Source: Kitasatospora sp. NBC_01287
GTDB taxonomy: Bacteria; Actinomycetota; Actinomycetes; Streptomycetales; Streptomycetaceae
Reading direction: 5' to 3'
Length of the DNA stretch: 64,000 nt
Assembly: GCF_026340565.1 (NCBI RefSeq)
Contig: NZ_JAPEPB010000001.1
Coordinates: forward strand, 4,812,501 to 4,876,500
The translations under genes were made by a program, and so were the position numbers. Positions 11,451-64,000 of the stretch are shown piece after piece; positions within the stretch are counted from its first letter, which is position 1, and the number at the start of each line of letters is the position of its first letter. The notes under the pieces are model-generated. The model ran no database searches and was not told the DNA's origin. It saw only the letters and a program-made list of their open reading frames with translations.

Positions 11451-12200
11451 ATGCGTGAATCGCGGGAGTCCAGCAGGCACCGCAAGGCCCGGCAAGCGCT
11501 GCTCCAGGCGGCGCTGACCTGTGCGCAGCACTGGAACTGGCCGGTGGTGCCCGGCGCGGTGCTGGTCGAGCGGGTCGGTGGTCCGGGCGAGTCGGCCGCC
11601 GGCCCGCAGGTGGTCTGCTCCTGCGACGACCCGCGCTGCCCGGTGCCCGCCGCGCACCCGCACGACCAGTCGCTGCTGGCGGCCACCACCGATCCCCGGA
11701 TGGTGCGCTGGTGGTGGGAGCGGCACAGCCCGCAGGCGCCGGTGATCGTGGCGACCGGACGGGCGGTGGCGGCGGTCAGCGTGCCGGCCGCGGTGGGCGG
11801 GGCGCTGCTGGGCTACCTGGACGCGCTGCGGCTGACCCCGGGCCCGGTGCTGGCCGGCCCGACCCGCTGGGCGCTGCTCGTCGCGCCCTACTCCTACCAG
11901 GAGTTGGCCGAGTCGCTGGTGGATCAGGAGCGGACCCTCGGCCCCGGCGGCGGGCCGGGAGTGGTGCCCAGTTCGGTGCGCTACCACGGGCCCGGCGGCT
12001 TCCTGGTGCTGCCGCCCTCGCGGGTCGGCGACGGGGGCGCCCCCGGCCGCAGGCCGGGGGAGGGCGCGGGGGTTCGCTGGGTGCGCCGGCCGGTGCCGGG
12101 GCCGGCCGGCGGGGTGTGGCTGCCGCCGGTGGCGAGTCTGCTGGAGGCGCTGGTGGCGGCGGGTTCGGCGGCGCCGGACGGCAGCCGGCTGGCCCACTGA
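11451..12200 (+). CDS. Bifunctional DNA primase/polymerase-like protein
   Basis: A 249-residue protein resembling the actinobacterial proteins annotated with the N-terminal primase/polymerase (prim-pol) domain. These begin with an Ala/Leu helix and 'WPVVPGA', carry a Cys-containing loop (CSCDDPRCPVPAAHPHD) and a Trp-rich segment (MVRWWWERHSPQAPVIVATG), and end with LPPVASLLEAL. Catalytic acidic residues of true prim-pol enzymes are not obvious: the expected D.D pair after the IVATG strand is AAVSVPAAV. It may therefore be a regulatory relative. The start is ATG 11451; a GTG at 11445 is better spaced from AGAGGAA and cannot be excluded. The 15-base tandem repeat directly upstream may be its operator. 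Confidence 0.55.
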   Translation: MRESRESSRHRKARQALLQAALTCAQHWNWPVVPGAVLVERVGGPGESAAGPQVVCSCDDPRCPVPAAHPHDQSLLAATTDPRMVRWWWERHSPQAPVIVATGRAVAAVSVPAAVGGALLGYLDALRLTPGPVLAGPTRWALLVAPYSYQELAESLVDQERTLGPGGGPGVVPSSVRYHGPGGFLVLPPSRVGDGGAPGRRPGEGAGVRWVRRPVPGPAGGVWLPPVASLLEALVAAGSAAPDGSRLAH

Positions 12201-12273
12201 GGGCCGACGCTGATGGTCCCGCGCCGATGGTCCTCAGGGGGCTTGCCGAGGGTCGGCTGACGACTTCCGGAAG

Positions 12274-12330
12274 GGCTGCCGTGATGTGCTGAAAGGCCGT
12301 CGGGATTGTCACGACGCCTTCTCGGCAGCC
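12274..12330 (+). ncRNA. Nested stem-loop element in convergent intergenic region
   Basis: The outer arms GGCTGCCG (12274-12281) and CGGCAGCC (12323-12330) enclose a second stem, AAGGC-C-GTCG against CGAC-GCCTT (about 12293-12320), with a nine-base loop. The two nested helices are followed 12 bases later by a separate terminator hairpin. It could be a small structured RNA or simply part of a compound terminator between convergent genes. Transcription is not shown by the sequence. Confidence 0.35.
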
Positions 12331-12342
12331 CACATGGAAGAT

Positions 12343-12378
12343 CCGGCCGCTGGCGACGGGGGATGCACCAGCGGCCGG
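12343..12378 (+). terminator. Terminator hairpin with T run after the primase-like gene
   Basis: Perfect 11-base arms CCGGCCGCTGG (12343-12353) and CCAGCGGCCGG (12368-12378) are separated by 14 bases and followed by ACTGTTTT, so termination is oriented on the plus strand. It may also stop the convergent minus-strand transcript. Confidence 0.75.
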
Positions 12379-12520
12379 ACTGTTTTGAACAGTAACAAGG
12401 ATTCGCGCCGTCGCCAATTTCCCTGCGCGGCTCGGCCCCGGGTTTTCCGGGTTTCCGGGGTCGGATGTGACCGGACTCACGCTCACATGATCAGATTTGA
12501 TCACAGTGCGCCATGTTCGG

Positions 12521-13504
12521 TCAGTTCAGGGTGACCTGACGGCTCACCAGGTTGGCCCGGGCCCGGCGCTCCTCGCCCGTCAGGGGCGCGGCGGCGGCCA
12601 GTGCGCCGGTCAGCCGCTCGGCGAAGGCCGCGGCCGGCTTCTCGCAGTCGGCCGCCGACATCGCCACCGGCAGGTCCCAGACCGGCACGGTCAGGCCGTG
12701 CGCGCGGAACGAGCCGACCAGCCGGGTGCCCTCGCCGACCGAGGCCTCGCCGAGGGCGGCGAGCCGGGCCAGCGCGTCCAGCAGCTGCTCCTCCGGCACG
12801 GTCATCACCCAGCGCAGGTGGTTCTTGTCCGGGGTGCCGCACCAGTAGGCGCTGTCCACCGAGGAGAGCTTCTCGGTCGGGATCGCCGAGGCGTTGGCCC
12901 GCTCCAGCGAGGCCGCGACCTCGCCGGAGGCGGCCTCGGCGTCCTCCAGCCAGAACTCGAAGCCGGTGTGCACCGCGGGGACGAACGGCGCGGCCGGGTC
13001 GAGCAGGTCCTGCAGCCGGGGGCCGTCGGCGGCGGCCCGGCGGGTCGGCACCGGGTTGCCCGGCTCGGTGACCAGGGCCTCGGCCAGCGCGTCCGCCAGG
13101 TCGCGGCTCAGGTCGCCGGAGGAGGACTGGGTCTGCAGGCCGAGCAGGATCGAGCCGTCCGGGCGGCGCAGGGCCGGCCAGGCCAGCGGCAGCACGGTGG
13201 CCAGGGTGACCGAGGGCACCTCGCCCGACGCCCCGTCGGCCACGCCGGCGGCCAGCGTCAGCGGCACCGTCGCGGCGGGCACCAGCTCGCGCAGCGCCAC
13301 CCAGTCGGCCTCACCCGCCAGTCCCTCGAACGGGCGGTGCACCAGCTCCTGGACCGCGTGCGCGGCCTGCCGGCCGTGGCAGGCCTTGTACCGGCGGCCC
13401 GAGCCGCAGGGGCAGTCCTCGCGGGCGCCGACGACGGGGACGGCGCCGTCCGGCGCGGCGGCGCGGCTCGGCTGGGACGACTTCTTGGCGGCCTTCTTGG
13501 CCAT
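12521..13504 (-). CDS. DUF5926 family protein with SEC-C zinc motif
   Basis: A 327-residue cytoplasmic protein of a family restricted to actinobacteria. The N-terminus is a Lys/Ala tail (MAKKAAKKSSQ). At residues about 35-55 it carries a SEC-C type zinc motif, CPCGSGRRYKACHG, the same C-x-C-x8-C-H pattern found at the SecA C-terminus. The remainder is an alpha/beta domain without known activity. The start is ATG 13504, preceded by GGGAGAG; the frame extends upstream without a better start. It is immediately downstream, on the same strand, of an HATPase anti-sigma-like gene, a neighbourhood I believe is common in Streptomyces. Function unknown. Confidence 0.8.
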   Translation of the reverse strand: MAKKAAKKSSQPSRAAAPDGAVPVVGAREDCPCGSGRRYKACHGRQAAHAVQELVHRPFEGLAGEADWVALRELVPAATVPLTLAAGVADGASGEVPSVTLATVLPLAWPALRRPDGSILLGLQTQSSSGDLSRDLADALAEALVTEPGNPVPTRRAAADGPRLQDLLDPAAPFVPAVHTGFEFWLEDAEAASGEVAASLERANASAIPTEKLSSVDSAYWCGTPDKNHLRWVMTVPEEQLLDALARLAALGEASVGEGTRLVGSFRAHGLTVPVWDLPVAMSAADCEKPAAAFAERLTGALAAAAPLTGEERRARANLVSRQVTLN

Positions 13505-13584
13505 GGTGCGGCTCTCCCGGGGATGGTGGGCACTGTCTCCGGGCAGCCTACTGAGAATCGGCGCGCTCCCTTTCCGGCCGCCGC

Positions 13585-14277
13585 TCAGGCCGAGCGGCGG
13601 GCCGGCCTGGCCGGCCAGGCCGGCAGCACCGCCCAGACGGTCACCTCGCCCGGCGCGTCCCGCACCCCCCAGTCGACGGCCAGTTGGCCCACGATGCTCA
13701 GGCCGCGCCCGCCCTTCGCGGTGAGCGAGGGGCTGGCCGGCAGCGGCCGGGTGCTCGCGCCGCCGTCGGTGACCTCCAGGCTCAGCAGGCCGTCGGTGTG
13801 CATCTGCCAGCGCACCAGCACCCCGCCGGGCTGCTCGGGACACGGTGTCCCGGCCGCCTCGTGCGCCGCCGCCGGGTGGCGGTGCACCCCGGCGCCGACC
13901 AGCAGCTCGTCGAGCGTGGCGGCCTCCTCCACCTCGGCGGACCCCGCCGAGGCGACGGCCGCCGCCTCGGCGGTAGGCCTGCCGGGCCGGGATTCCGCCC
14001 GCTCCTGGGGCTTCGCCAAATCAGTGGGATGCAGTGGGAATTCGTCGGGCGCCCCCCCGGCGAGATCCAGCAATGGAGCCAGCGGCCGCGCATAGCGGCA
14101 GGAATTGCTGAGCAGTTCGGAAAGGATCAGAACCGCGTCATCGATGACGGTATCGGGCACCTCGCGATCGCCCAGATCACGCCGCAGCCGGCGCCGGGCG
14201 GCCCCGACACTGGCCGGGCCGTGCGGCACCGCCATGGTTGATGAAGTCGGCACTTCACGCGCCACCATCAACGCCAC
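13585..14277 (-). CDS. HATPase_c_2 anti-sigma-factor-like ATP-binding protein
   Basis: A 230-residue protein related to RsbW/SpoIIAB serine kinases. The N-box is ILSELLSNSCRYARPL, with the conserved E and N present. The G1 and G2 boxes are VTDGGASTRPL and GGRGLSIVGQLAVDWG. About 70 residues of Ala/Glu/Arg-rich sequence (about 90-160) are inserted between N-box and G1, longer than in the classical kinases. Family members bind and inhibit sigma factors or phosphorylate anti-sigma antagonists. The partner here is unknown, although two group 3 sigma factors are encoded 41 kb away. The start GTG 14277 lies seven bases after AAGGAGG, which decides it over the longer frame. Confidence 0.85.
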   Translation of the reverse strand: MALMVAREVPTSSTMAVPHGPASVGAARRRLRRDLGDREVPDTVIDDAVLILSELLSNSCRYARPLAPLLDLAGGAPDEFPLHPTDLAKPQERAESRPGRPTAEAAAVASAGSAEVEEAATLDELLVGAGVHRHPAAAHEAAGTPCPEQPGGVLVRWQMHTDGLLSLEVTDGGASTRPLPASPSLTAKGGRGLSIVGQLAVDWGVRDAPGEVTVWAVLPAWPARPARRSA

Positions 14278-14610
14278 CCCCGGACCTCCTTCAGCGTTTG
14301 CCGAGGGATGGATGCCCCGGGGGAATGCGCCGGAAACGGGTTGACTCGCTCGTGGTCCGTCAATTGTGAAGTCGCCGAGGTTGGCGCAACACGCTGTGCG
14401 CAAAAGGTGATTAGCTGCTTACGCTGCGTCAATCGAGGGGGCGGATTCCGTCCGCGTCGGCCAGTGCGCCACCCGGTTTCGCGCCCGCGTACGCCAAATC
14501 GGCGCAGTGGGCGCGGGCGCGGACGGCGGCCGCACGAGGTGATGCGGTGGCCGTGCGGTGGACGGTCCGGGTGTGGCGGGTGTGGCGGGTGTGTCCGATG
14601 GGACGGTCGA
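14278..14610. other. Intergenic region with a terminator-like hairpin
   Basis: About 330 bases upstream of the ATPase gene and downstream of the phosphodiesterase gene, both minus strand. GCGCCCGCG (14481-14489) and CGCGGGCGC (14512-14520) form a stem with an inner CGCC/GGCG pairing and probably end the phosphodiesterase transcript. A short GGGTGTGGC direct repeat occurs around 14567-14590. The promoter of the ATPase gene should lie at 14300-14450, a locally AT-richer part, but I cannot assign boxes. Confidence 0.45.
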
Positions 14611-15489
14611 TCAGCGGCCCAGCTGGTCCAGCACGTCCCGGGGGCGGTTGGTGATGATCGCCTCGACACCGAGCTCCAGGCAGAGCGCGACGTCCTCGGG
14701 GCGGTCCACCGTCCAGACGTGCACCCGGTGCCCGGCGGCCCGCAACCGGGTCACCAACTCCGGCTTGCGGCGGACCAGTTCGATGCCCGGTCCGGCGATC
14801 ACCGCGCCGGCCGGCAGCCCGGCGCCGGGCCACAGGCGCAGCAGCGAGGGGTGCTCGAAGAGGAAGACCCGGGGAAACTCCGGTGCCGAGTCCCGCAGCC
14901 GGCCGAGCGCCAGCCCGGAGAAGCTCATCAGCCTGGCGTGCGGCCGCGCCGGGTCGCCCTCGCCGGCCGGCGCGCCCTGGATCCCGAAGCGGCGCAGCAT
15001 CCGCACCAGCTCGGCCTCCACCGCGCCCCGGTAGCGCACCGGGTGCTTGGTCTCGATCGCCAGGTCCACCCGGCGTCCGCAGTCGGCGACCAGCTCCAGC
15101 AGCGACTCCAGCCTCAGCACCGAGTGCCGCTCCGGATCCGCCGCGCCGCCGTCACCGGTGGGGCGGCCGGGGCCCGCTGGTGCTTCGTCGGCGACCGGCT
15201 TCCAGGAGCCGAAGTCGTGCGCCGCCAGTTCCGCCAGGGTGAGCGTGGAGACCACCTTGCGCCCGCCGTCCGAGACCCGGGCGATGGTCCGGTCGTGCAC
15301 GCAGACGAGCTGCCGGTCCCTGGTCAGCCGGACGTCGCACTCGACCGCGTCGGCCCCCTCGGTCAGCGCCCGCCGGTAGGCCGCCAGGGTGTGCTCGGGC
15401 AGCGCGGCCGAGGAGCCGCGGTGGGCGACCACCTGGACCCCCGGTGCGGTGCGGGCGGGGTCGGCGGCGGAGAGGTCGGGAGTCGTCAC
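14611..15489 (-). CDS. Glycerophosphodiester phosphodiesterase (GDPD family)
   Basis: A 292-residue TIM-barrel enzyme that hydrolyses glycerophosphodiesters to glycerol-3-phosphate and an alcohol. The signature residues are present: AHRGSSAALPEHTLAAYRRA (H-R-G...E.T), then GADAVECDVRLTRDRQLVCVHD with the E-x-D metal ligands and the second catalytic His. Further on are LAIETKH and the C-terminal VHVWTVDRPEDVALCLELGV with EAIITNRP. There is no signal peptide, so the enzyme is cytoplasmic. The GTG start at 15489 has no ribosome site but follows a TTAGGGT box by seven bases, suggesting a leaderless transcript. The cytX-like gene ends 65 bases upstream on the same strand. Confidence 0.92.
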   Translation of the reverse strand: MTTPDLSAADPARTAPGVQVVAHRGSSAALPEHTLAAYRRALTEGADAVECDVRLTRDRQLVCVHDRTIARVSDGGRKVVSTLTLAELAAHDFGSWKPVADEAPAGPGRPTGDGGAADPERHSVLRLESLLELVADCGRRVDLAIETKHPVRYRGAVEAELVRMLRRFGIQGAPAGEGDPARPHARLMSFSGLALGRLRDSAPEFPRVFLFEHPSLLRLWPGAGLPAGAVIAGPGIELVRRKPELVTRLRAAGHRVHVWTVDRPEDVALCLELGVEAIITNRPRDVLDQLGR

Positions 15490-15554
15490 GGCACCACCCT
15501 AAGCGGCCCGGGTGACCCGGACGCGACGAGCACCCCAACGCCGGGTTCCGCAGG

Positions 15555-17003
15555 TCAGGCGGTGTCCGAGAGCCGGTTCAGCCCCAGCGTCAGCAGGCCC
15601 GCGACCAGGAAGGAGAAGAGCGAGGCGGAGGTCCACTCCTGCGGGGTGAAGTGCGCCCAGGACTGGGTGTCCGTCCAGAAGCGCGTCCAGGGTCCGGCGT
15701 GCTGGGTCGGCGCCAGGAACTGGTAGGTGCACAGGCCCAACGCCCACGGCAGCAGCATCAGTGGCCGGGCCGGTGCCTGCTGCGACATGTCCCAGCCGCG
15801 CCGGCCGCGGCCCAGGAAGTAGTCGGCGGCCAGCACCGCGAGCAGCGGCACGAAGACCGAGCCGATCAGCCCGAGGAAGGCGTAGTAGGAGTTGGTGAAC
15901 TCGGTGATCCGCAGCGCCAGCACGGTGACCAGCAGGCCGATCCCGCCGGTCAGCAGCCGCCGGTCGACCCTCGGGAAGAGGTTGTGCACCGACATGGCGG
16001 TCGAGTAGACGTTGGCGAAGGACTGGTCCGCCTCGCGCAGCACCAGGACCAGCAGGAAGGCCCAGCCGGCCGTCACCCCGGTGAAGGAGTCCAGCAGGTT
16101 GTCGGCGTTGCCGTGCGACTGGAGCAGCGCGATCAGGCCGAGCAGGTAGCACCAGACCTGGGCCACGGTGTAGCCGGAGAAGGTCCCCCAGAAGGAGGCC
16201 CGCCCGGTGCGCGAGTGCCGGGTGTAGTCGGCGGCCAGCGGCACGAAGGAGATCGAGACGGCGATGATCGCGTCGGTCGCGCCGAGGAAGCCGTGCCAGT
16301 TGCCGGCTCCCGGGTCGGGCCAGCCCTGCCGCCCCAGCTGGACGGTGTAGTAGACCATCGCCACGCCCACCGCGATCGCCACGTACTTGCGCAGCGCCGC
16401 GATCGACCCCAGCGGCCAGATCGTCAGCACGGTGGTCAGCAGGCCGGCCAGCACCACGAAGAGCCAGCGCCAGCCCTGGGTACCGGCCACCGTCTGGGCA
16501 CCCCAGGCGATCACGATCAGCTCGTAGACGCCCCAGCCCACGCACTGCGCGATGTTCAGCACGGTCGGCACGTAGGAGAGCCGGGTGCCGAAGAGCCCGC
16601 GCAGCACGGCCATGGCCGGCGCGCCGGTGCGGGCGCCGATCAGCGCGGCCACGCCCAGCATCGCGGTGCCGATCACGGTGCCCGCCACGATCGCGGTCAG
16701 CGCCGCGGTGAAGGAGAGCTCGCTGCCGGGCTGGCCCAGCACGGTGGCGGCGCTGGTGAAGCCGATCAGGCTGATCCCCAGGTTGGCCCAGAGCGCGAAC
16801 TGGTCCTTGAAGCCCAGGGTGCGCGGCGGCGCGGTGTCCAGCACCAGCGGTGCCTCGGCGTGGCCGGCCGCGGCCCGCGGTTCGAGCACCGCCGTCGACG
16901 AGGACGACGAGGACGACGAGGGCGACGAGGGCGAGGAGGGCGAGGAGGACGAGGAGGGTGACGACGGGGAAGGCGAAGATGGGGAAGGCGAAGCAGCCGT
17001 CAT
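15555..17003 (-). CDS. cytX: NCS1-family permease, putative hydroxymethylpyrimidine transporter CytX
   Basis: A 482-residue NCS1 transporter with about 12 membrane segments. The body opens with LGFKDQFALWANLGISLIGF and contains ISFVPLAADYTRHSRTG and GLIGSVFVPLLAVLAADYF, as in CytX/CodB-type permeases. The TPP riboswitch directly upstream identifies the cargo class: CytX proteins import the thiamine precursor HMP or related pyrimidines. The start ATG 17003 follows GGGAG that forms the 3' edge of the aptamer, so ligand binding can hide the ribosome site. The first 36 residues are an almost pure Ser/Pro tract (SPSSPSPSSPSSSSS), unusual for this family and probably disordered in the cytoplasm. 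Confidence 0.85.
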   Translation of the reverse strand: MTAASPSPSSPSPSSPSSSSSPSSPSSPSSSSSSSSTAVLEPRAAAGHAEAPLVLDTAPPRTLGFKDQFALWANLGISLIGFTSAATVLGQPGSELSFTAALTAIVAGTVIGTAMLGVAALIGARTGAPAMAVLRGLFGTRLSYVPTVLNIAQCVGWGVYELIVIAWGAQTVAGTQGWRWLFVVLAGLLTTVLTIWPLGSIAALRKYVAIAVGVAMVYYTVQLGRQGWPDPGAGNWHGFLGATDAIIAVSISFVPLAADYTRHSRTGRASFWGTFSGYTVAQVWCYLLGLIALLQSHGNADNLLDSFTGVTAGWAFLLVLVLREADQSFANVYSTAMSVHNLFPRVDRRLLTGGIGLLVTVLALRITEFTNSYYAFLGLIGSVFVPLLAVLAADYFLGRGRRGWDMSQQAPARPLMLLPWALGLCTYQFLAPTQHAGPWTRFWTDTQSWAHFTPQEWTSASLFSFLVAGLLTLGLNRLSDTA

Positions 17004-17009
17004 GGCCAG

Positions 17010-17145
17010 GACTCCCTACGCCGGCATTACCCGGACAGGTTCCGGCGGTCAGCACTCCCTCGACCGCACCGGCGTCACCGCCATGGCGTACGGTCGATCA
17101 GCGCACTCTCAGCCTGGTGGGTCCAAGCTCCCGCGTGTCGATCAG
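17010..17145 (-). promoter_or_regulatory. TPP (thiamine pyrophosphate) riboswitch, THI element
   Basis: Read on the minus strand, the conserved pieces occur in order: GGGAGC (about 17131), CACCAGGCTGAGAGTGCGC (17101-17119), GGGAGTGCTGACCGCCGGAA, ACCTGTCCGGGTAATGCCGG (17021-17040) and GCGTAGGGAGTCC. The CTGAGA loop and the GGGTAATGCCGGCGTAGGGA thi-box core are essentially consensus. The P3 extension holds extra paired sequence (GTACGCC/GGCG). The 3' end overlaps the ribosome site of the permease gene, so control is probably at translation initiation, with repression when TPP is bound. Confidence 0.95.
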
Positions 17146-17374
17146 GAAGCGACAGGGTAGCCCGGCGCTTGGATTACGCCAAGGCACGGCAGTGCGCCGT
17201 CCGGATCGCGGAACGCCTCGGGGAGGCCGTTCGGGTGTCGCGAGCAGGGCGAACGGGGGCCTGTTCGGTCCGTCTAAGGATTCTTACCAGTTCTTCAGGC
17301 GGCCCCTTACGGCAACCAGATCGGGCATAGGAAAAACTAGGGGCCAAGGTCCCTGTCAGCTATGGAGGTCGTCC

Positions 17375-19162
17375 GTGAGCACCGAGCACGAGAGTGGTTC
17401 CACCGGTCCGCAGGGGGAGCAGCTCTCCAGCGGGCACGGCGAGCCGGGGGGCACTTCGGCGGTCGGTGACCCCCGGGCGGGCACCGAGCCCGCGGCGAGC
17501 GAGCCGACGATGGTCCTGCCCGCGGCGGACCCGGGCGTGGCGGACGCGAGCGCGCCCGAGCGGCCCGTGGCACCGCAGCCGACCCTGGCCCTGACCAAGG
17601 TGCCCGCCCCGGAGCCGACCCCGGCCGCGCCGCCCGCCGAGCCCGCCAGGACCTACCTGGACGCGCCGCCGCCGGCCGCGCCCGGCTACCTGGACGCCCC
17701 GCCGCCGGTCCCGTCGGCGCCCGCCGTCGAGCCGCCCGCCAACCCGTACGCGGCCCCCGCGGCCCCGCTCGCCGCCCCGCCCGTGGGCGGCGCCCCGATC
17801 ACCCCCGGCCTGCCGGCCGCCGGGGCCCCGCAGGGCGAGCAGCACCACCCGTTCGGCGCCGGCACCCCGATCGGCGATGCCTGGTCGACCCCGCAGCAGG
17901 GCCTGCCCGGCTACCCGGAGGGGACGGAGTTCGCCGGCCACCCGCAGGGCGGCGTCCCCGGTTACCCCGGCGGACCGGAGTTCCCCGGCGAGTACCCGGG
18001 CGGCTTCGCCCCGCCGCCCGCGCCGCGCAAGAAGGGCAAGGGCTCGCTGATCGCGCTGATCGCCGCGGTCGCCCTGGTGGCCGGTGTCGCGGGCGGGGTG
18101 GCCGGCGCGGCGCTCAAGGGCAACGGCAGCTCCGGCTCGTCCGCCCTGACCGGCAACAGTCGCTCCAGCACCACGACCACCAGCGCCAACAACCAGGTCG
18201 CGCTCAACCGGGCACCCGACTCGGTGGCCGGCATCGCGGGCACCGCGTTGCCCAGCACCGTCACCATCAAGGCGGAGGGCAGCTCGGAGTCCGGCACCGG
18301 CACCGGCTTCATCTTCGACACCCAGGGCCACATCCTGACCAACAACCACGTGGTCGCCCCGGCGGACAACGGCGGCAAGCTGAGCGTCAAGTTCTCCGAC
18401 GGCAACACCTACCCCGCCTCGGTGGTCGGCAAGGCCAAGGGCTACGACCTCGCGGTGGTCAAGCTGGACGCGCAGCCGAGCGAGAAGCTCACCCCGCTCC
18501 CGCTGGGCGACTCCGACCAGGTCGCGGTCGGCGACGTGTCGATCGCCATCGGCGCGCCGTACGACCTGGAGAGCACCGTCACCTCCGGCATCATCAGCGC
18601 CAAGAACCGCCCGGTCGCCTCCGGTGACCAGGCCAGCACCCAGACCTCGTACATGAACGCGCTGCAGACCGACGCCTCGATCAACCCGGGCAACTCCGGC
18701 GGCCCGCTGCTCAACGCGAGCGGCCAGGTGATCGGGATCAACTCGGCGATCCAGTCCAACTCCAGCGGCAGCGGCCAGGCCGGCAGCATCGGCCTCGGCT
18801 TCGCGATCCCGATCAACCAGGCCAAGCGGGTCGCCCAGATGCTGATCACCACCGGCACCCCGGTCTACGCGACCCTCGGCGTGCTGCGCAACGACGACTA
18901 CAGCGGGGACGGCGCGCAGATCATGACCTCCCCGGTCGGCGGCACCCCGGCCGTCACCCCCGGCGGCCCTGCCGACCAGGCCGGCCTGAAGCCGGGCGAC
19001 GTGATCACCAAGCTCGGCGGCGAGATCATCGACAACGGTCCCGCCCTGGTCAGCGCCATCTGGACGCACGCCCCCGGCGACAAGGTGGACGTCGACTACA
19101 CCCGCAACGGCACCTCCGGCCACACCAGCGTCACCCTGGGCAGCCGCTCCGGCGACCAGTAA
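17375..19162 (+). CDS. HtrA/DegP-like S1C serine protease with PDZ domain, membrane anchored
   Basis: A 595-residue protein. The cytoplasmic N-terminus (about 1-220) is a Pro/Ala/Gly-rich disordered region. A single transmembrane helix follows KKGKG (LIALIAAVALVAGVAGGVAG, about 225-245). The trypsin-like domain shows the full triad: His in ILTNNHVV (about 325), Asp in GYDLAVVKLD (about 357) and Ser in NPGNSGGPLL (about 440). A C-terminal PDZ domain (DQAGLKPGDVITKLGGEII) follows. Such proteases degrade or refold damaged extracytoplasmic proteins and process signalling proteins. The GTG start at 17375 follows TGGAGG. The gene is divergent from the riboswitch-controlled permease. Confidence 0.93.
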   Translation: MSTEHESGSTGPQGEQLSSGHGEPGGTSAVGDPRAGTEPAASEPTMVLPAADPGVADASAPERPVAPQPTLALTKVPAPEPTPAAPPAEPARTYLDAPPPAAPGYLDAPPPVPSAPAVEPPANPYAAPAAPLAAPPVGGAPITPGLPAAGAPQGEQHHPFGAGTPIGDAWSTPQQGLPGYPEGTEFAGHPQGGVPGYPGGPEFPGEYPGGFAPPPAPRKKGKGSLIALIAAVALVAGVAGGVAGAALKGNGSSGSSALTGNSRSSTTTTSANNQVALNRAPDSVAGIAGTALPSTVTIKAEGSSESGTGTGFIFDTQGHILTNNHVVAPADNGGKLSVKFSDGNTYPASVVGKAKGYDLAVVKLDAQPSEKLTPLPLGDSDQVAVGDVSIAIGAPYDLESTVTSGIISAKNRPVASGDQASTQTSYMNALQTDASINPGNSGGPLLNASGQVIGINSAIQSNSSGSGQAGSIGLGFAIPINQAKRVAQMLITTGTPVYATLGVLRNDDYSGDGAQIMTSPVGGTPAVTPGGPADQAGLKPGDVITKLGGEIIDNGPALVSAIWTHAPGDKVDVDYTRNGTSGHTSVTLGSRSGDQ

Positions 19163-55459: not shown

Positions 55460-56350
55460 TCAGCTCTCGCTGGTCAGGCCCTCGCGCAGCTGGGTGAGGG
55501 TGCGGGTGAGCAGCCGGGAGACGTGCATCTGGGAGATGCCGATCTCGTCGCCGATCTGGGACTGGGTCAGGTTGCCGAAGAAGCGCAGCATGATGATCCG
55601 CCGCTCCCTGGGCGGCAGCTTGGCCAGCAGCGGCTTGAGCGACTCGCGGTACTCCACGCCCTCCAGCGCCAGGTCCTCGTAGCCCAGGCGCTCGGCCAGG
55701 GGTCCGTCGCCGTCCTCGTCGCCGGGCGTCGAGTCCAGCGAGCTCGCGGTGTAGGCGTTGCCGACGGCCAGGCCCTCGACCACGTCCTCCTCGCTGACCC
55801 CCAGGCAGACCGCCAGCTCCGCCACGGTGGGGGAGCGGTCCAGCCGCTGGGCGAGCTCGTCGCCGGCCTTGGTGAGGGCCAGCCGCAGCTCCTGGAGCCG
55901 CCGGGGCACCCGGACCGACCAACTGGTGTCCCGGAAGAAGCGCTTGACCTCGCCGACCACGGTGGGCATCGCGAAGGTCGGGAACTCCACCCCGCGGTCC
56001 GGGTCGAACCGGTCGATCGCCTTGATCAGGCCGATCGTGCCGACCTGGACGATGTCCTCCATCGGCTCGTTGCGGCTGCGGAACCGGGCCGAGGCGTAGC
56101 GCACCAGCGGCAGGTTCAGCTCGATCAGGGTGTCCCGGACGTAGGTGTGCTCGGGGGTGCCGGCCTGCAGCGTGGCCAGCCGGCGGAAGAGCGAGCGGGA
56201 GAGCGTGCGGGTGTCCAGGCCCGGCGCCGCGGTCGGCTCGGGGACGGGCGGCGGCGGGACGGCGGGCGCCACGGCCGCCGCCTGCTCCGGAGCGTGCTCG
56301 GCCACCGCCGTACCACCGTGGATCTCTGCGCTGCCCAGCTCTGCGGACAT
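55460..56350 (-). CDS. Group 3 sigma factor (SigB/SigF family), second of a tandem pair
   Basis: A 296-residue alternative sigma factor. A Pro/Ala-rich N-terminus precedes region 2 ([20 protein letters not shown], then [20 protein letters not shown]), region 3 ([18 protein letters not shown]) and region 4 ([40 protein letters not shown]). This is the SpoIIAC/SigB/SigF type, normally held by an RsbW-like anti-sigma factor. The start is ATG 56350 with AAGGGGG upstream. It is a clear paralogue of the next upstream gene. In Streptomyces this family controls osmotic stress and spore maturation. The matching anti-sigma gene is not adjacent. Confidence 0.92.
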
Positions 56351-56522
56351 GCACCCACCCCCTTGTGACTGGTCCAACGGGAGCCTCCGCTCGGCGGTTC
56401 CCCGGTGCGCGCCGAGTGATCGGCGTCCCCCAACCGCTTGCTTACCGGAACCGCGAGCACGGCAAACCCGAACATCGCGAGTTGTCACGTGGCAGTAACG
56501 CGCAGCGATGCCCGGGTCCTGC

Positions 56523-57443
56523 TCACTCGTCCCAGTTGTTGCCGGTGCGCAGCCTGGTGAGGATGCGCGTGAGGAGGCGGGAGACGTGCATCTGGGACAT
56601 GCCGAGCTCGTTGGAGATCTGGGACTGCGTCAGGTTGGCGAAGAAGCGCAGCATCACGATCCGCCGCTCGCGCTCGGGCAACTGCACCAGCAGGTGCCGG
56701 ACCATGTCGCGGTGCTCCACGTCGGTCAGCGCGGAGTCCTCGTAGCCGAGCCGGTCGAGCAGCGCCAGGCCGCCCTCGTGCTCCTGGGCGGCCTCCAGGG
56801 AGGCGGCGTTGTAGGCGCGCCCGGCGTCCAGGCAGGCGCGCACGTCCTCCTCGGGGATGCGCAGGTTGGCGGCGATCTCGGGGACCTTGGGGGTGCGCCC
56901 GTGCAGCACCGTCAGCTCCTCCATCGCGCCGCTCACCTGCACCCAGAGCTCCTGCAGCCGGCGCGGGACGTGCATGGTGCGGACGTTGTCCCGGAAGTAG
57001 CGCTTGATCTCCCCCAGGATGGTGGGCAGCGCGTAGGTGGGGAACTGCACGCCGCGGCTGGGGTCGAACCGGTCGATCGCGTTGATCAGGCCGATGGTGC
57101 CGACCTGGACCACGTCCTCCATCGGCTCGTTGCGGCTGCGGAACCGGGTGGCGGCGTAGCGCACCAGCGGGATGTTGACCTCGATCAGCGCGGCCCGCAC
57201 CTGCTCGCGTTCGGGGGCCTGGGCGGGCAGCTCGGCCAGCCGCTCGAAGAGCACCCGGGTCAGCGTGCGCACGTCGATCGGGCCCGGGGCGCCGTGCTCC
57301 TCGGTGCGCGCCTCCTCGGCCCGCGGGCCGGGGGTGGGGGTGGGAGCGGCGCCGGTCACCGCGGTGGTGGTCGCGGCGCCCGGGTCGGGCCCGGCCTCGG
57401 GACCGCCCGTGCCGGTGTCCGGCGTATCGTCCTGGATCCGCAC
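56523..57443 (-). CDS. Group 3 sigma factor (SigB/SigF family), first of a tandem pair
   Basis: A 306-residue alternative sigma factor closely related to the downstream gene. Region 2 is [20 protein letters not shown], then [20 protein letters not shown]; region 3 is [20 protein letters not shown]; region 4 is [20 protein letters not shown], then [20 protein letters not shown]. The 55-residue N-terminal extension is Thr/Pro/Ala-rich and differs from its neighbour. The start is GTG 57443 with GGAGGG ten bases upstream. The 172 bases between the two genes suggest separate promoters. The tandem arrangement looks like a local gene duplication. Confidence 0.92.
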
Positions 57444-58572: not shown

Positions 58573-58983
58573 TCAGGGCTGCTGGATGAAGCGGACCTCG
58601 GCCTCGGGGCAGAGCCCCAGCTCCTCACCGGTCACCGGCTCCCCGGTGCAGATCAGGATGTTGTAGTGGTTGGGGAAGTGGCAGGCGTCGAAACCGAGCA
58701 CGGTGCCCACCGGCCGCCCGCCGATCCAGACCGTGTCGCCCCGGTCGATCACCCCGGCGCGGGAGATCTCGGTGAAGCCCAGGAACCCCACCCGGTCCAC
58801 CCTGGTCCCCGGCGTGCCGTCGGCGACGTCCGTGGTCACCAGCTCGTGCAGCTCGCCGGCCCGCACGCACCGGCTCGCGTACGGCTCCACGGTCATGCCG
58901 CGGTCCTCGCGGCGGTGGATCAGCACCTTCACCAGCTCCCCGGCGACCGCCCGCTTGGCGCCGTCCTCCCGCACCGCGCTCAT
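58573..58983 (-). CDS. DUF6917 family protein, last gene of an overlapping operon
   Basis: A 136-residue cytoplasmic protein with a beta-rich pattern: GELVKVLIHRREDRGMTVEP, then VTTDVADGTPGTRVDRVGFL, DTVWIGGRPVGTVLGFDACH and FPNHYNILI. The strongly conserved-looking GFDACHFPNHYNI motif, with Asp, Cys and two His, could bind a metal or cofactor. I recognise it only as a DUF6917-type protein, without known function. Its start overlaps the stop of the upstream oxidoreductase gene (ATGA). It is part of the operon that runs to the window's right edge. Confidence 0.7.
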   Translation of the reverse strand: MSAVREDGAKRAVAGELVKVLIHRREDRGMTVEPYASRCVRAGELHELVTTDVADGTPGTRVDRVGFLGFTEISRAGVIDRGDTVWIGGRPVGTVLGFDACHFPNHYNILICTGEPVTGEELGLCPEAEVRFIQQP

Positions 58984-59948
58984 CGTGCCTCCGCGGCGGT
59001 GGGACGGAACACGTGGGTGGCGTCGTCTCGGTCGAGCCGGTAGGCCGCCGCCACCAGGTCCAGGGCGGCCAGGCCGCCGTCGCGGCGGCCGGCGGGGCGC
59101 TCGATCGTGGCGCCGAAGGCGGTCAGGATGCCCCGGTACTCGTGCCAGAGCGAGGCCTTGAACCCCTGGTGCCCGGCCAGCAGGTCGGACCGCAGCACCC
59201 GGCCGTCGGCCAGGGTGACCTCGACGTCCTTCAACTCGCCCGGATAGGACCAGTCCAGCTCGACCCTGGCCCGGCGCGGGGCGGGGCCCGCGGTGACCAG
59301 GTCGAGCGCCGCCTGCCGGTCCAGGCCCGCCGCGTCGCGGGTGATCGCGGCCCGCACCACGCTCAGCTCGGACTCGCCGAAGAGCAGCCGGACCAGGTCG
59401 AAGGCGTTCGGGCCGTTGTCGGCGACGCAGCCACCGCCGCAGCGCGCCGGGTCCAGGTACCAGGCGTCCTGGCCGATGTGGTCCTCGATCCGCTCGAAGT
59501 AGCGGACCTTGACCTTGGCGACCGGGGTGCCGGCGCAGGCGGCCGCCAACTCCAGCACCTGGCTGTTGTAGCGGCGGTGGAAGGCGGTGAAGAGCACCAG
59601 CGAGCGCTCGGCGGCGATCGCGGTCAGCGCCCGGGCGTCGGAGAGCTCGGTCGCCAGCGGCTTCTCCACGCAGACCGGCAGCCCGGCGGCCAGCAGGTCG
59701 CGGCAGAGCGCGGCGTGCGCGTCGTTGGGCACGGTGACGATCGCGCCGTCCAGGTCGCGGTGGGCCGCGAGCAGCTCGCGGTGGCCGAGGTGGCCGGGGA
59801 TGCCGGCGGCCCGCGGGGCGGCCAGCGCGGCCTCGTCGAGGTCGCAGACGGCGGCCAGGGTGAAGGCCGGGTCGGCCTCGATCGCGGCCAGGTAGAACTT
59901 GGCGATCACACCGAGGCCGATCACGGCCAGTTTGCGGGGGGCGGTCAC
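58980..59948 (-). CDS. Gfo/Idh/MocA-family oxidoreductase
   Basis: A 322-residue NAD(P)-dependent sugar or cyclitol dehydrogenase-like enzyme. The Rossmann domain opens KLAVIGLGVIAKFYLAAIEA. The characteristic EKPLATELSDARAL (Glu-Lys-Pro, catalytic-region Lys) is near residue 95, with VPNDAHAALC before it. The C-terminal domain has WYLDPARCGGGCVADNGPNA with the conserved GG..D.G.H/N region (Asn replaces the usual His). The substrate is not predictable. The start is GTG 59948, overlapping the TGA of the Ldh-family gene (GTGA); a longer upstream frame is rejected as its shadow. Confidence 0.87.
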   Translation of the reverse strand: MTAPRKLAVIGLGVIAKFYLAAIEADPAFTLAAVCDLDEAALAAPRAAGIPGHLGHRELLAAHRDLDGAIVTVPNDAHAALCRDLLAAGLPVCVEKPLATELSDARALTAIAAERSLVLFTAFHRRYNSQVLELAAACAGTPVAKVKVRYFERIEDHIGQDAWYLDPARCGGGCVADNGPNAFDLVRLLFGESELSVVRAAITRDAAGLDRQAALDLVTAGPAPRRARVELDWSYPGELKDVEVTLADGRVLRSDLLAGHQGFKASLWHEYRGILTAFGATIERPAGRRDGGLAALDLVAAAYRLDRDDATHVFRPTAAEAR

Positions 59949-61225
59949 GGCGTGCCTCCGATCGGCTTGGGGGCGCTCAGGCCGGTGGCCAGGGCCAGTT
60001 CGGTCAGCTCGGCGAACCGGGCGGGTGACAGCTCGACCCCGTCGCGCAACTGACGCCGCGCCAATTCGCCTTCGGGGAAGCCGGGGTAGCGCACCGGGTG
60101 GGCCAGGTCCAGCGGTGGGCAGTCCAGCAGCGCGCCGAAGAGCGAGCCGGCCTGCCGGGCGAAGTCCGCGCCGTCCCGCAGCGCGCCGGGGTCGATCGCC
60201 AGTGCCAGGTAGCCGATGTCGTCGTCCCGGCCGGCGGGGCCGCCGTCCCCGGCCAGCGCGGCCGGCTCCGGTCCCAGGCCCGCGCCGGCCAGCAGCGCGC
60301 CCAGCACCTCGACCACCAGGCCCAGGCCGTAACCCTTGAACGCGCCGGTCTCCGGGCGGCTGCCCAGCCAGAGCAGGTGTGCCTCGCCCCGGTCGAAGGC
60401 CGCCGGGTCGGTGACCGGCGCGCCGTCCTGGTCGGCCAGCCAGCCGCTCGGCACCGCCTGTCCGGCCCGGGCGGCGGCCCGCACCCGCCCGGTGGGCACC
60501 GCCGTGGTGCTCATGTCCAGCACGAACGGGTGCCGGTCGCCGGCCGGCGCGGCCACGCTCAGCGGATTGGTGCCGAGCATCGCCAGCCGCCCGCCCGGCG
60601 GTCTGGCGATCTTCTGGTGCCCGCAGTTGGCGGCCAGCAGGCCGATCAGGCCCCGGCGGGCGGCGCGCAGCGTGTGGAAGCCGGCGCAGCCCAGATGGGT
60701 GGCGCCGCGCACCGAGACCAGCCCGATGCCGAAGCTCGCGGCCCGCTCGATCGCCAGGTCCATCGCGGCCGGGGCCGCCCACAGGCCCAGCGCCCGGCGG
60801 TCGTCGAGCAGCACGGCGGCGCCGCGGTCGGCCAGCGTCTCGGGCTCGGCCGCCGGATCGGCCCGGCCCTCGTCCAGCAGCGGCAGGTAGAGCCGGGTGA
60901 GGTTGACCAGGCCGTGCGAGGTCAGGCCGGTCAGATCGCCGTAGCAGAGCGCCTCGGCGGCGGTGGTGGCCCGGGCCGCGGGCAGGCCGCGGGCGGTGAA
61001 GACCTCGGTGGTGAAGCGGAGCAGCTCGGGGTAGCGGACCAGGACGGCGGGGCGGGTGGTGCGCGGGGCGCCGATCCGGGCGCCGTCGCCCTCGGCCTCG
61101 GCGGCGCGCTCGGCGGCGGACCCGGCGGCCTCGGCGGAGGCGAGGGCGGCGGATGTGGTCTCCACCTCGGCGGCGGACCCGGTTCCAGGCCCGGCGAGCG
61201 GGGTGGCGAGGGGCGTCAGCGGCAT
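59945..61225 (-). CDS. Ldh-family (malate/L-lactate/ureidoglycolate-type) oxidoreductase
   Basis: A 426-residue NAD(P)-dependent oxidoreductase of the LDH_2/YlbC-like family, not related to classical lactate dehydrogenase. Motifs are ALCYGDLTGLTSHGLVNLTR (with the conserved D..g..SHG), SVRGATHLGCAGFHTLRAAR (the catalytic His) and MLGTNPLSVAAPAGDRHPFV, followed by LDMSTTAVPTG. Family members reduce 2-keto acids or act on cyclic imines and ureidoglycolate. An Ala/Glu-rich N-terminal extension of about 55 residues is unusual. The start ATG 61225 overlaps the end of the M20 gene by ten bases. Confidence 0.87.
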   Translation of the reverse strand: MPLTPLATPLAGPGTGSAAEVETTSAALASAEAAGSAAERAAEAEGDGARIGAPRTTRPAVLVRYPELLRFTTEVFTARGLPAARATTAAEALCYGDLTGLTSHGLVNLTRLYLPLLDEGRADPAAEPETLADRGAAVLLDDRRALGLWAAPAAMDLAIERAASFGIGLVSVRGATHLGCAGFHTLRAARRGLIGLLAANCGHQKIARPPGGRLAMLGTNPLSVAAPAGDRHPFVLDMSTTAVPTGRVRAAARAGQAVPSGWLADQDGAPVTDPAAFDRGEAHLLWLGSRPETGAFKGYGLGLVVEVLGALLAGAGLGPEPAALAGDGGPAGRDDDIGYLALAIDPGALRDGADFARQAGSLFGALLDCPPLDLAHPVRYPGFPEGELARRQLRDGVELSPARFAELTELALATGLSAPKPIGGTP

Positions 61226-62538
61226 GCGGGGTTGGCCTCCTGGGTGGGGTGGGGCAGCCGGGGGGAGGGCGGCGAGGCAGGGCGCTCGGCGTCGAAGGCG
61301 AGCAGCAGGTCGGCGACGGAGCGGGCGAACGCGGCGAGCTCGTGGACGTGGACGAACTCGCCGTCCGCGTGGGCGTTGTTGTCCTCCAGCGAGCCGGGGC
61401 CGAGCACCACGGTGGCGGTGTCGGGTCGGTCGGCCAGCCAGATCGCGTCGCAGGTGAAGCCGGGCTCCTCGGCGGGCCAGCGCGGGATCCGGGCGGCGGC
61501 CAGCAGCCGGGGCAGCCAGGGCTGTTCGGCGGCCGGGTCGGTGAGCGCGGGCAGGCCGCGCTTGAGCCAGCGCAGCCGGGTGATCGCGGCCGCGTCCACC
61601 GCGGTGCGGGCCAGCAGCGGGTTGGCGGCGAAGCGCTCGGCGAAGGCGGCCAGGCCCGCCGCCAGGCCCTCGACCACCGCCCGCTCCAGCCGCTCGGCGG
61701 TGGCCGGGTCGGGGTAGGCGAGGTTGAGCAGCAACTCGCCCTGCCCGTAAACCCGGTTGTGCAGGTGGCCGGTGTGCAGGCCGGCCACGCAGAGCCGGCC
61801 GGGGCCGGGGTTGATCGAGCCGGCCAGGTGCTGGGCCAGGAAGCCGAGCAGCACGGTGGCGTTGTGTCCGGCGGCGGGCCGGTCGTCCACCGCGTCCTGG
61901 CCCGCCACCTCGATCCGCGCGGTCATGGCGGCGGTCGAGCGGGTCAGCGCGCGGTTGCCGGTGGGTTCGCAGAAGACGTTCAACCGGCCGTAGTGCCCGG
62001 CGGCCACCAGCGGGCGGGTGCCGATGGTGCCGAGCGCGCCGCCCTCCTCGCCGGCCACCGCCTGCACCAGCACACGGGTCCGGTCGGCCAGGCCGGGCCG
62101 CTCGGCGCGGGCCGCCCGGATCCCGGCCAGCAGGGCGACGGCCGGGCCCTTGGCGTCCACCGCGCCGCGCCCGTAGTAGGTGCCACCGGTGCGGTGCACC
62201 GGCTGCTGCCCCGCCACGGTGTCGAGGTGGACGTTGAACATCACGGTCCGCTCGCGCGCGGACGCGGGCCCCGACTGCAGCACCAGGCTCGGCTGCTCGG
62301 CCAGGAAGGCGGGGTCGGCGGCGGCCGCGCGCACCGGCAGCGGCACGTCGGGCAGTTCGGCCCAGGCGCGCTGGGGGGCGGCGTGGTGCAGCACGGTGAA
62401 GCCCGACTCGGCGGCGGCCTCGGCGTAGCGCCGCTGCGCCGCCCAGAGCCGGGGGGTGCCCGCGGGCTCCTCCAGCGGGCCGGCGGTGGGCAGCGCGAGC
62501 AGGTCGAGCAGCAGTCGGTGGTCCGCCGCGGTCAACAT
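61216..62538 (-). CDS. M20/M25/M40-family metallo-hydrolase
   Basis: A 440-residue zinc-dependent amidohydrolase/dipeptidase. Metal and catalytic residues are visible: FNVHLDTVAG (His, Asp), YGRGAVDAKGPAVALL (bridging Asp), AVAGEEGGALG (catalytic Glu and ligand Glu) and DNNAHADGEFVHV (last His). The dimerisation domain lies between about 200 and 320. Family members release amino acids or deacylate N-acyl compounds, for example succinyl-diaminopimelate or N-acetylornithine. The start ATG 62538 overlaps the stop of the isomerase gene by seven bases. In this operon it could unmask an amine from an acylated intermediate. Confidence 0.9.
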   Translation of the reverse strand: MLTAADHRLLLDLLALPTAGPLEEPAGTPRLWAAQRRYAEAAAESGFTVLHHAAPQRAWAELPDVPLPVRAAAADPAFLAEQPSLVLQSGPASARERTVMFNVHLDTVAGQQPVHRTGGTYYGRGAVDAKGPAVALLAGIRAARAERPGLADRTRVLVQAVAGEEGGALGTIGTRPLVAAGHYGRLNVFCEPTGNRALTRSTAAMTARIEVAGQDAVDDRPAAGHNATVLLGFLAQHLAGSINPGPGRLCVAGLHTGHLHNRVYGQGELLLNLAYPDPATAERLERAVVEGLAAGLAAFAERFAANPLLARTAVDAAAITRLRWLKRGLPALTDPAAEQPWLPRLLAAARIPRWPAEEPGFTCDAIWLADRPDTATVVLGPGSLEDNNAHADGEFVHVHELAAFARSVADLLLAFDAERPASPPSPRLPHPTQEANPACR

Positions 62539-63533
62539 GCGGCCAGACCGGCCGCGGTGGGGTGCCACACCGTCCCGTCGGCCGCCGCCAACTGCTCGGC
62601 CAGGGTGCGCAGCGCCTCGCCGCAGGCGGCGAACGCGGCGCGGCAGCGGGCCGGTTCGGCGCGGTAGTGCTCGTGCGGGCGCACCGCCAGGTGCGGTTCG
62701 ATCGACCAGTGGCCCTGGTAGCCGGTGTCGAGCAGCAGCCGCAGGCAGTCGGCGACGGCCGCCTCGCCCGCGCCCGGCAGGGTGTAGGTCACCCCGGCCG
62801 GGCCGCCGGTCGCGTCCTTGACCTGGACGTGCTTCACATAGGGTGCCAGCGTGCGCAGTTGGTCGAGCGAACGGTAGCCGTAGGCGGCGCCGTTGCCGGT
62901 GTCGAAGAGGAAGCCGAAGGCCTCGGGGCCTGCGGCCTCCAGCAGTCGCAGCGCGCGCCCGGCGTCCGCGCCGGCCCAGCCGGAGCAGTTCTCGTGCAGC
63001 AGGACCAGGCCCCGGTCGGCCGCGTGCTTGGCCAGCACCCGGGTGCGGCGCAGCACTTCGCGCTCCCAGGCGACCTCGGTCAGGCCGTCGTTGGGGTAGG
63101 ACATGATCCGCAGGTAGCGGGTGCCGAGCACCGCGCAGCGGTCGGCGAGCACCGTGAGATCGGCCAGCTCCTGGTCCAGGTCGCAGCTGATCGGGCGGGA
63201 CCAGCCGCCGATCCGGGAGGCGACCACCGGCACGGCCAGGCCGGCCTCGGCGATCCGGGCGGCGGCGCGGGCGAAGGCCGGGCCGTTCAGCAGCTCCAGC
63301 GGCTGGCCGTCGATGGTGCGCAACTCGATGGACTGCCAGCCGAGTTCGCGGGTCGCGGCGAGCTGTCCCGCGAGGTCGACGGCGGCCTCGTCGGCGATCC
63401 CGCAGTAGTCGATCCGGCGCCGGGTCCCGCGCTCGACGCCGGGGGGCGAGTGGCCGGTGGAGGGCAGCCGGGACAGTTCGGTGGTGGCCGGTCGGGACAG
63501 TTCGGTGGACGGCCGGGACAGTTCAGTGGACAC
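62532..63533 (-). CDS. Sugar-phosphate isomerase/epimerase (xylose-isomerase-like TIM barrel)
   Basis: A 333-residue AP-endonuclease-2-type TIM barrel. Metal-site residues are seen in VLLHENCSGWAGADAGRALR (Glu), FGFLFDTGNGAAYGY (Asp), YVKHVQVKDATG (His, Lys/Asp) and GHWSIEPHL (Glu). The first 25 residues are an odd repeat, STELSRP/STELSRP/TTELSRL, encoded by GAACTGTCC-containing units, and the barrel begins only at RRIDYCGIADEAAVD. No later start codon is available before the barrel, so the repeat is apparently translated. It overlaps the upstream partial gene by 11 bases. Substrate unknown. Confidence 0.85.
   Translation of the reverse strand: MSTELSRPSTELSRPATTELSRLPSTGHSPPGVERGTRRRIDYCGIADEAAVDLAGQLAATRELGWQSIELRTIDGQPLELLNGPAFARAAARIAEAGLAVPVVASRIGGWSRPISCDLDQELADLTVLADRCAVLGTRYLRIMSYPNDGLTEVAWEREVLRRTRVLAKHAADRGLVLLHENCSGWAGADAGRALRLLEAAGPEAFGFLFDTGNGAAYGYRSLDQLRTLAPYVKHVQVKDATGGPAGVTYTLPGAGEAAVADCLRLLLDTGYQGHWSIEPHLAVRPHEHYRAEPARCRAAFAACGEALRTLAEQLAAADGTVWHPTAAGLAAC
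63470..63533 (-). repeat. Short imperfect tandem repeat at the isomerase N-terminus
   Basis: Three copies of a roughly 24-base unit containing CCGAACTGTCCCGG encode the S/T-T-E-L-S-R-P/L repeats at residues 2-22 of the isomerase. Confidence 0.7.
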
Positions 63534-64000
63534 AGGACAACTCCCGTTCGGTCGAGCTCTCGCGGTTCAGCAGCAGGTCGGCGCCGCTGAGGCGCTTGGC
63601 CTCGCTCAGCAGGCGCACCGCCCGGACGTGTCCGTCGAACTCGGCCTCGGGCGGCAGCGGGCCGAGCAGGAAGCGGCGGTAGGCGCGGGTCAGGTAGCTG
63701 CCGAGCGCGTCGTCCGGGAAGACCTCCCGGCTGTTCAGCCGCCGTCCGGTCAGGCGCAGTTGGGCGTACTCGTCGTCGGAGCTGCCGGGGAAGTGGCCGG
63801 TCGCGGTGCCGCGCGCGAAGCGCAGCGTGATCCGGCGCTCGCGGACCGGCGAGGTCAGGTCGGAGACGATCTCGGTGCGCGCCCCGCCCCGGTGGGCCAG
63901 TTCGAGCCGGGCGCCGCCGAGCATCGGGCGGACCTCGGAGCCGACCCGCAGATCGTGCCAGTGGGCCGCGGTGACCTCCGCGTCGCCGCCCAGCAGCAGG
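63523..64000 (-). CDS. Probable Gfo/Idh/MocA-type oxidoreductase, C-terminal part (runs off the window)
   Basis: The frame is open at the right edge. The codons before the ATG at 63924 read as protein (LLLGGDAEVTAAHWHDLRVG), so that ATG is internal. The visible 158 residues are a mixed alpha/beta C-terminal domain with TLRFARGTATGHFPGSSDDE, SREVFPDDALGSYLTRAYRR and HVRAVRLLSEAKRLSG. The last phrase and the domain style resemble the C-terminal part of sugar dehydrogenase-like Gfo/Idh/MocA proteins. It is the most upstream visible gene of the operon. The N-terminal Rossmann part would decide the family. Confidence 0.5.
   Translation of the reverse strand, partial: LLLGGDAEVTAAHWHDLRVGSEVRPMLGGARLELAHRGGARTEIVSDLTSPVRERRITLRFARGTATGHFPGSSDDEYAQLRLTGRRLNSREVFPDDALGSYLTRAYRRFLLGPLPPEAEFDGHVRAVRLLSEAKRLSGADLLLNRESSTERELSCVH

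Follow-up and report, generated by a model that had tools for sequence, protein, structure and literature searches.

What does a fully overlapping six-gene operon make when its enzymes fit no textbook catabolic pathway? Such an operon, ending in a gene for a DUF6917 protein, lies at the right end of the 64,000-nucleotide stretch of Kitasatospora sp. NBC_01287 analyzed here (contig NZ_JAPEPB010000001.1, positions 4812501-4876500; the window, below). We find that the operon forms one side of a divergent cluster, which also has an isoprenoid component. By a modest balance of probability, we read it as one arm of an uncharacterized actinobacterial natural-product cluster, in which a core set of enzymes would turn a sugar or nucleotide sugar into an amine-rich acid that is prenylated by a UbiA enzyme and finished as a terpenoid hybrid.

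Layout of the operon and its divergent partner

Because the first gene crosses the window edge, we followed the sequence beyond it in the same genome (locus L009, in which a position equals the window position minus 53999). All six genes are on the minus strand, listed here in the order of transcription.

63523..64000, extending past the window to ~64620 (whole gene L009:9524-10621), minus strand: Gfo2, Gfo/Idh/MocA-type oxidoreductase, first gene (PF01408)
62532..63533, minus strand: TIM, triosephosphate isomerase (TIM)-barrel sugar isomerase/epimerase/lyase-type enzyme (AP_endonuc_2, PF01261)
61216..62538, minus strand: M20-family metallohydrolase, DapE/ArgE/LysK-like (PF01546)
59945..61225, minus strand: Ldh_2-family oxidoreductase of the malate/lactate/ureidoglycolate/sugar-acid dehydrogenase type (PF02615)
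58980..59948, minus strand: Gfo1, Gfo/Idh/MocA oxidoreductase with an EKP motif (PF01408, PF22725)
58573..58983, minus strand: DUF6917 protein of 136 amino acids, last gene, small all-beta barrel (PF21891)

With these starts, successive junctions overlap by 11, 7, 10, 4 and 4 bases. The original prediction had described the same genes and overlaps with DUF6917 last, and all were recovered; its family assignments also held, five by Pfam inside the window and the sixth, Gfo2, once the whole gene was read. The six genes stand in this order in 73 of the 76 relatives' loci whose sequence reaches 6 kb or more upstream of DUF6917. The Gfo2/TIM overlap is 11 bases in 46/71 loci, the Ldh_2/Gfo1 overlap 4 bases in 60/77, and the Gfo1/DUF6917 overlap 4 bases in 50/65. 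Since both gene order and junction overlaps recur in relatives, the arrangement is not due to chance.

A look further to the right, which the original prediction had proposed, revealed a second operon. It is separated from Gfo2 by a divergent intergenic region of ~200-300 bases and runs rightward in L009, where the two operons together span 4574-18914.

10815-12014, rightward: DegT1 aminotransferase
12043-13179, rightward: DegT2 aminotransferase
13483-13986, rightward: 167-amino-acid protein without a Pfam match
14067-14882, rightward: methyltransferase
14990-15952, rightward: UbiA prenyltransferase
~15949-17547, rightward: adenosine monophosphate (AMP) ligase
17538-18914, rightward: flavin oxidase (PF01593)

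Another species of the genus (L134) has the identical gene order at 73-94% identity, and relatives add exporters, regulators and isoprenoid genes.

Conservation among relatives

A scan of named genomes gave 147 related stretches, 80 of which underlie the locus counts. The conserved core consists of Gfo2, TIM, M20, Ldh_2, Gfo1, DUF6917 and the two DegT aminotransferases, with UbiA in most loci. Both DegT genes are present in 72 of the 76 loci with sufficient upstream sequence, and UbiA is visible in 44 of the 76 within the DNA examined, despite short flanks. Co-occurrence was counted in 298 genomes from the bacterial family to which the window belongs; DUF6917 and the M20 orthologue are each found in 45 of them and UbiA in 44. 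DUF6917 and M20 occur together in 44 genomes (Fisher p 2e-50) and DUF6917 and UbiA in 41 (p 4e-42), with the caveat that related genomes are not independent. The cluster is carried by ~15% of the sampled family genomes, and it also recurs across many actinobacterial genera.

Exceptions to this pattern include genome G027 (L132 8148-19772), where an island has been inserted, the DegT genes and UbiA are lost, and TIM and Gfo2 are truncated. The island carries DNA methyltransferase, ATPase, helicase-like and Vsr-like endonuclease genes. We read this locus as a decaying copy of the cluster with a possible defense island. In G067 we infer from its position that the cluster ends near a contig edge. 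On a Streptomyces plasmid the core is present, with DegT1, DegT2, UbiA, the AMP ligase, a nucleotide-sugar dehydrogenase and an MMPL exporter ~30 kb away. Separately, G165 has paired homologues of M20 and the flavin (FAD) enzyme (L131:9105-11776, 58-59%) without DUF6917 or the remaining core.

To the left of DUF6917 in the window are two adjacent sigma-factor genes and their neighbors (55460-57443). These are conserved in the genus and lie outside the cluster; the genes on this side belong to the genomic neighborhood of the genus.

Enzyme families and catalytic motifs

Gfo1 matches PF01408 (73 bits) and PF22725 (34 bits), and motif conservation was examined in 81 homologues. The EKP motif is present, and an N replaces the usual histidine of GGxxxDxGxH (GGGCVADNGPNA). 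The whole Gfo2 protein reaches 27.5 bits against PF01408 (cut-off 24), and its EKP motif is kept across 74 homologues. Ldh_2 scores 318 bits against PF02615; against the NCBIfam equivalogs it stays under every cut-off.

The TIM protein (PF01261, 92 bits) gave a predicted model with a mean predicted local distance difference test score (pLDDT) of 93.8. In VIA-align the model resembles the isomerase Art22 (Z 26.3), the epimerase UlaE (Z 25.7) and IolI (Z 24.4); these matches settle the fold rather than the reaction. An E-D-H-E quartet (E149, D179, H203, E247) is invariant among homologues. At its 5' end, the TIM gene has a 21/24-base tandem repeat of ~3 copies (window 63455-63529) encoding STELSRP-like repeats, and the part conserved among homologues begins near 63437.

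M20 (PF01546, 57 bits) has as its closest solved relative the [LysW]-lysine hydrolase 5xoy (E 1.7e-8). The metal-site motifs HLD, GRGxxDAKGP, GEEGG, CEPTG and NxAHxxGE are kept in 77 homologues. Many M20 matches were flagged as having stops inside. In the three flagged genomes that were checked (L086, L087 and L097), the match overruns the gene's own stop codon by 3 to 48 bases, so these flags mark natural gene ends rather than internal stops.

In the rightward operon, the pyridoxal phosphate lysine is kept in both DegT1 and DegT2. Among solved structures, sugar aminotransferases such as WbpE come closest to them (E 1e-69 for DegT1). UbiA scores 56.7 bits against PF01040 (cut-off 34.2), and its Asp-rich motifs DDxTGxxDGSDxxNY and SNxNDxxGD are kept in 47 homologues; compared with PDB sequences, it has no match.

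DUF6917 and its fusions

The DUF6917 protein scores 185.1 bits against PF21891 (gathering cut-off 27) and covers model positions 2-126 of 127. Across 40 homologues 47 positions are invariant, including R28, R38, C39, E47, D52, D99, C101, H102, N105, H106 and N108. Judged by this conservation, these residues look like an active or binding site. The AlphaFold model is all-beta (pLDDT 92.9, predicted template modeling score 0.87) and gave nothing in Foldseek at E 0.001. VIA-align placed EF-Tu domain-2-like barrels in its best rows, at Z ~4-4.5, too weak to use. It also gave a collinear match, at only Z 3.9, to the DUF4438/TM1086 fold (3.5 Å over 83 residues), with no Foldseek hit at E 0.001. The DUF6917 profile found a single chance match among PDB sequences (E 0.12).

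DUF6917 is joined to the Gfo1 C-terminus in six loci (L068, L106, L113, L119, G169 and G181), called by open reading frame length and matching sequence and confirmed with Pfam for G169. Because natural fusions of the two exist, the simplest inference is that DUF6917 is a functional partner of Gfo1. DUF6917 is also found at the N-terminus of Dxs, the 1-deoxy-D-xylulose-5-phosphate synthase (L122:19989-22316, Streptomyces plasmid; NBC_00490). Outside the actinobacteria, Thermomicrobium roseum has a DUF6917 protein of 36% identity (L123:14956-15423), whose neighbors are a proline-racemase-family gene, LysX and an acetolactate-synthase-like gene; 0/395 other genomes sampled across the phylum carry the domain.

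Accessory genes

Several genes recur beside the core. A nucleotide-sugar dehydrogenase is encoded in 46 of the 80 loci, just past the edge in three more (L061, L067 and L102), and also in two clusters that carry tryptophan biosynthesis genes (the Trp-type clusters, below). It scores 375 bits against TIGR03026, has the motif GVGGHCIPVDP, and its nearest equivalog models are uridine diphosphate (UDP)-N-acetylmannosamine dehydrogenases. We take this motif to point to the UDP-N-acetylhexosamine (HexNAc) branch of the dehydrogenase family rather than the UDP-glucose branch. No glycosyltransferase, polyketide synthase or nonribosomal peptide synthetase was recognized among the annotated cluster genes, which suggests that the sugar nucleotide serves as a precursor and not as a donor.

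Genes for IspH, IspG, Dxs or a polyprenyl synthase are found in 12 loci. With dedicated isoprenoid genes in these loci, an isoprenoid component of the cluster is well supported. MMPL or MFS exporters and LuxR-type regulators occur in several loci, and a small secreted-looking protein in 32. An EF-hand protein of 184 amino acids (L054:10454-11008 and equivalents) stands beside the cluster in 50/80 loci, which is uncommon company for biosynthetic genes.

A proposed pathway and its alternatives

Our favored reading starts from what is directly observed, namely gene content, order and co-occurrence, intact catalytic motifs and, in a subset of loci, isoprenoid supply genes. The sequence of steps is a guess. 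The dehydrogenase would convert a UDP-HexNAc to the uronate, so that the starting sugar would probably be a HexNAc uronate. Gfo2 may oxidize the ring, as in 3-keto-sugar pathways, and the TIM barrel could then isomerize the keto-sugar or carry out an elimination. DegT1 and DegT2 would provide two transaminations, M20 would hydrolyze off an N-acyl group in a putative deprotection, and Ldh_2 may carry out redox chemistry at a 2-hydroxy/2-oxo-acid (or cyclic imine) center. DUF6917 is predicted to act with Gfo1 in one step. UbiA would prenylate the amine-rich acceptor, and an amphiphilic terpenoid hybrid could result after activation, methylation and oxidation by the AMP ligase, methyltransferase and flavin oxidase. 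In most strains the amine-rich block seems to go onto a terpenoid chain, and in a few it seems to join tryptophan-type chemistry. The original prediction had suggested a small natural-product or sugar-derived amine pathway; the DegT pair, UbiA, AMP ligase, methyltransferase, flavin oxidase, exporters and regulators fit this idea well. Its further suggestion, M20 as a deprotecting enzyme, is a candidate role for a protein whose metal site is intact.

Several observations weigh against this pathway. All of its chemical steps are assigned from family membership. UbiA enzymes usually need an aromatic acceptor, and an aminosugar is not aromatic. The only dehydrogenase homologue in the window's genome is distant (47%) and ~0.95 Mb away, which makes a uronate start uncertain in this strain. 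Streptomyces violens has a second copy (L047) in which DegT1, DegT2, Ldh_2, DUF6917, UbiA, the flavin oxidase, AMP ligase, methyltransferase and dehydrogenase are present without Gfo2, TIM, M20 or Gfo1; the strain also has a full core, at L052. Finally, the two Trp-type clusters, in the closely related genomes G169 and G181, have the core without UbiA.

These two clusters raise the strongest alternative: starting from a sugar acid, the core would build an aromatic or heteroaromatic amino-carboxylate, an analogue of anthranilate or aminobenzoate. In the main type this product would be prenylated by UbiA; in the rare type dedicated TrpD/F/C/B/A would convert it to a tryptophan analogue, an L-amino-acid ligase would build that into a small peptide, and a B3/4 editing-type domain would give self-protection. 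We consider this unlikely. The G169 operon reads dehydrogenase-trpD-trpC-trpB-trpA-DegT1-DegT2-TIM-M20-Ldh_2-Gfo1::DUF6917-B3/4, with core identities of 46-54%, and trpF, Gfo2, an ATP-grasp L-amino-acid ligase (LAL_C2) and an MFS exporter are nearby. The core layout of G181 is the same, in a sequence that is apparently frameshifted in Ldh_2 and a trpE-like gene. The cluster trpA, trpC and trpD are second copies, with housekeeping copies elsewhere in both genomes, and three further genomes of the genus lack trpF. Both cluster TrpDs have KAGN where all five housekeeping TrpDs have KHGN, whose histidine we take to lie in the anthranilate site. No chorismate-binding gene (trpE) was found near the G169 cluster. 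If the core makes an anthranilate analogue, its usual pairing with UbiA, an enzyme that normally acts on aromatics, would be accounted for as well.

Against this alternative, the type is confined to two closely related genomes, and in G181 the trpE-like gene follows immediately downstream of B3/4. The cluster TrpD still clears the trpD cut-off (297 vs 199 bits), and no enzyme for aromatization was recognized. One reading of the trp genes is that they are a dedicated supply of ordinary tryptophan, and extra tryptophan as a building block explains them more simply. The free-standing B3/4 domain, of the PheRS beta editing type (L129:7648-8319), closes the operon and could protect the host against a toxic amino acid. 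A more far-reaching version, which we rate as rather unlikely, has the core convert a sugar-nucleotide uronate, by a new route with two dehydrogenase/aminotransferase pairs, into a (hetero)aromatic amino acid resembling anthranilate. DUF6917 would then be a Gfo1 domain of a new kind, enzymatic or auxiliary, and the product would feed UbiA meroterpenoids in most strains and, in the rest, a TrpDFCBA set dedicated to a tryptophan analogue.

An inositol-derived aminocyclitol is improbable. Here Gfo1 would be an inositol dehydrogenase, TIM an inosose isomerase or dehydratase, and the DegT enzymes inosose aminotransferases, with UbiA prenylating the cyclitol. The top solved relative of DegT1, 7b0d, is indeed annotated as a glutamine:scyllo-inositol transaminase, and the best NCBIfam matches include iolG for Gfo1 and iolE for TIM, but both fall far short of the cut-offs (60.9 vs 355 and 24.9 vs 290 bits). 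Among the genes annotated near the core, none was recognized as an inositol-phosphate synthase, a phosphatase or a cyclase, though an enzyme acting in trans is possible. The nucleotide-sugar dehydrogenase, M20 and Ldh_2 would be left unexplained.

That the operon serves to degrade a sugar-derived amine or amide (opine- or purine-like) and has its neighbors by chance is highly improbable: the six families are each common in catabolic operons, but the DegT aminotransferases and UbiA are constant partners, there is no conserved uptake transporter, and the AllD, iolG, iolE, hydroxypyruvate isomerase and DapE/ArgE equivalog models all score below cut-off. Purine/ureide catabolism was rejected on the score of Ldh_2 against the AllD ureidoglycolate dehydrogenase equivalog (115 bits, cut-off 496), and an inositol catabolic operon because Gfo1 and TIM are below the IolG and IolE cut-offs. 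The absence of a textbook catabolic pathway, as originally predicted, was therefore borne out, with no inositol, sugar or purine operon found.

Comparison with known systems

One of the nearest known systems is the UDP-diaminouronate pathway of bacterial polysaccharides (WbpA-WbpB-WbpE type), in which a UDP-HexNAc 6-dehydrogenase, a Gfo/Idh/MocA dehydrogenase and a DegT aminotransferase act in sequence, as they would in our favored pathway. As for a WbpA-type enzyme, the 46 loci noted above combine the TIGR03026 match with the HexNAc-type motif, and in the window's genome no such gene is adjacent. Unlike that pathway, the cluster has no recognized acetyltransferase, epimerase or glycosyltransferase, and it adds TIM, M20, Ldh_2, a second DegT, DUF6917 and UbiA. 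The adjacent, overlapping Gfo2 and TIM genes also recall 3-keto-sugar gene pairs, in which a Gfo/Idh/MocA enzyme accompanies a TIM-barrel isomerase or lyase. The TIM model resembles YcjR (3-keto-glucoside 4-epimerase) and AtHYD (2-hydroxy-3-keto-glucal hydratase), but identity is ~15%, catabolic partners are missing, and the cluster is linked instead to aminotransferases and a prenyltransferase.

The Ebo cluster reportedly relies on a dehydroquinate-synthase-like cyclase and is said to lack DegT, M20, Ldh_2 and DUF6917. It too is reported to be small and conserved, to have an unknown product, and to place a UbiA-family prenyltransferase beside TIM-barrel sugar-type enzymes (PMC5133447). UbiA is also shared with meroterpenoid clusters such as those for zigralone (PMC13307353) and xiamenmycin (PMC4053376). 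Further parts of the zigralone cluster are an aminotransferase, methyltransferases and a polyprenyl synthase of its own (PMC13307353). In contrast to our proposal, zigralone and, reportedly, xiamenmycin arise by prenylation of aromatic acceptors, and the zigralone gene list has neither the sugar-amine core nor DUF6917 (PMC13307353).

Significance

A search of the open-access full-text literature, with subscription papers and MIBiG outside its range, found no description of DUF6917 or of such a cluster. The enzyme families are each known, and provisionally their combination is new. DUF6917 gains a precise partner and a pathway context, and the gene sets are clear enough for knock-out or expression. 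If the tryptophan-linked variant is as proposed, it would show a new way in which organisms make analogues of anthranilate or tryptophan. The cluster as a whole marks out aminosugar-derived terpenoid hybrids as a candidate new class.

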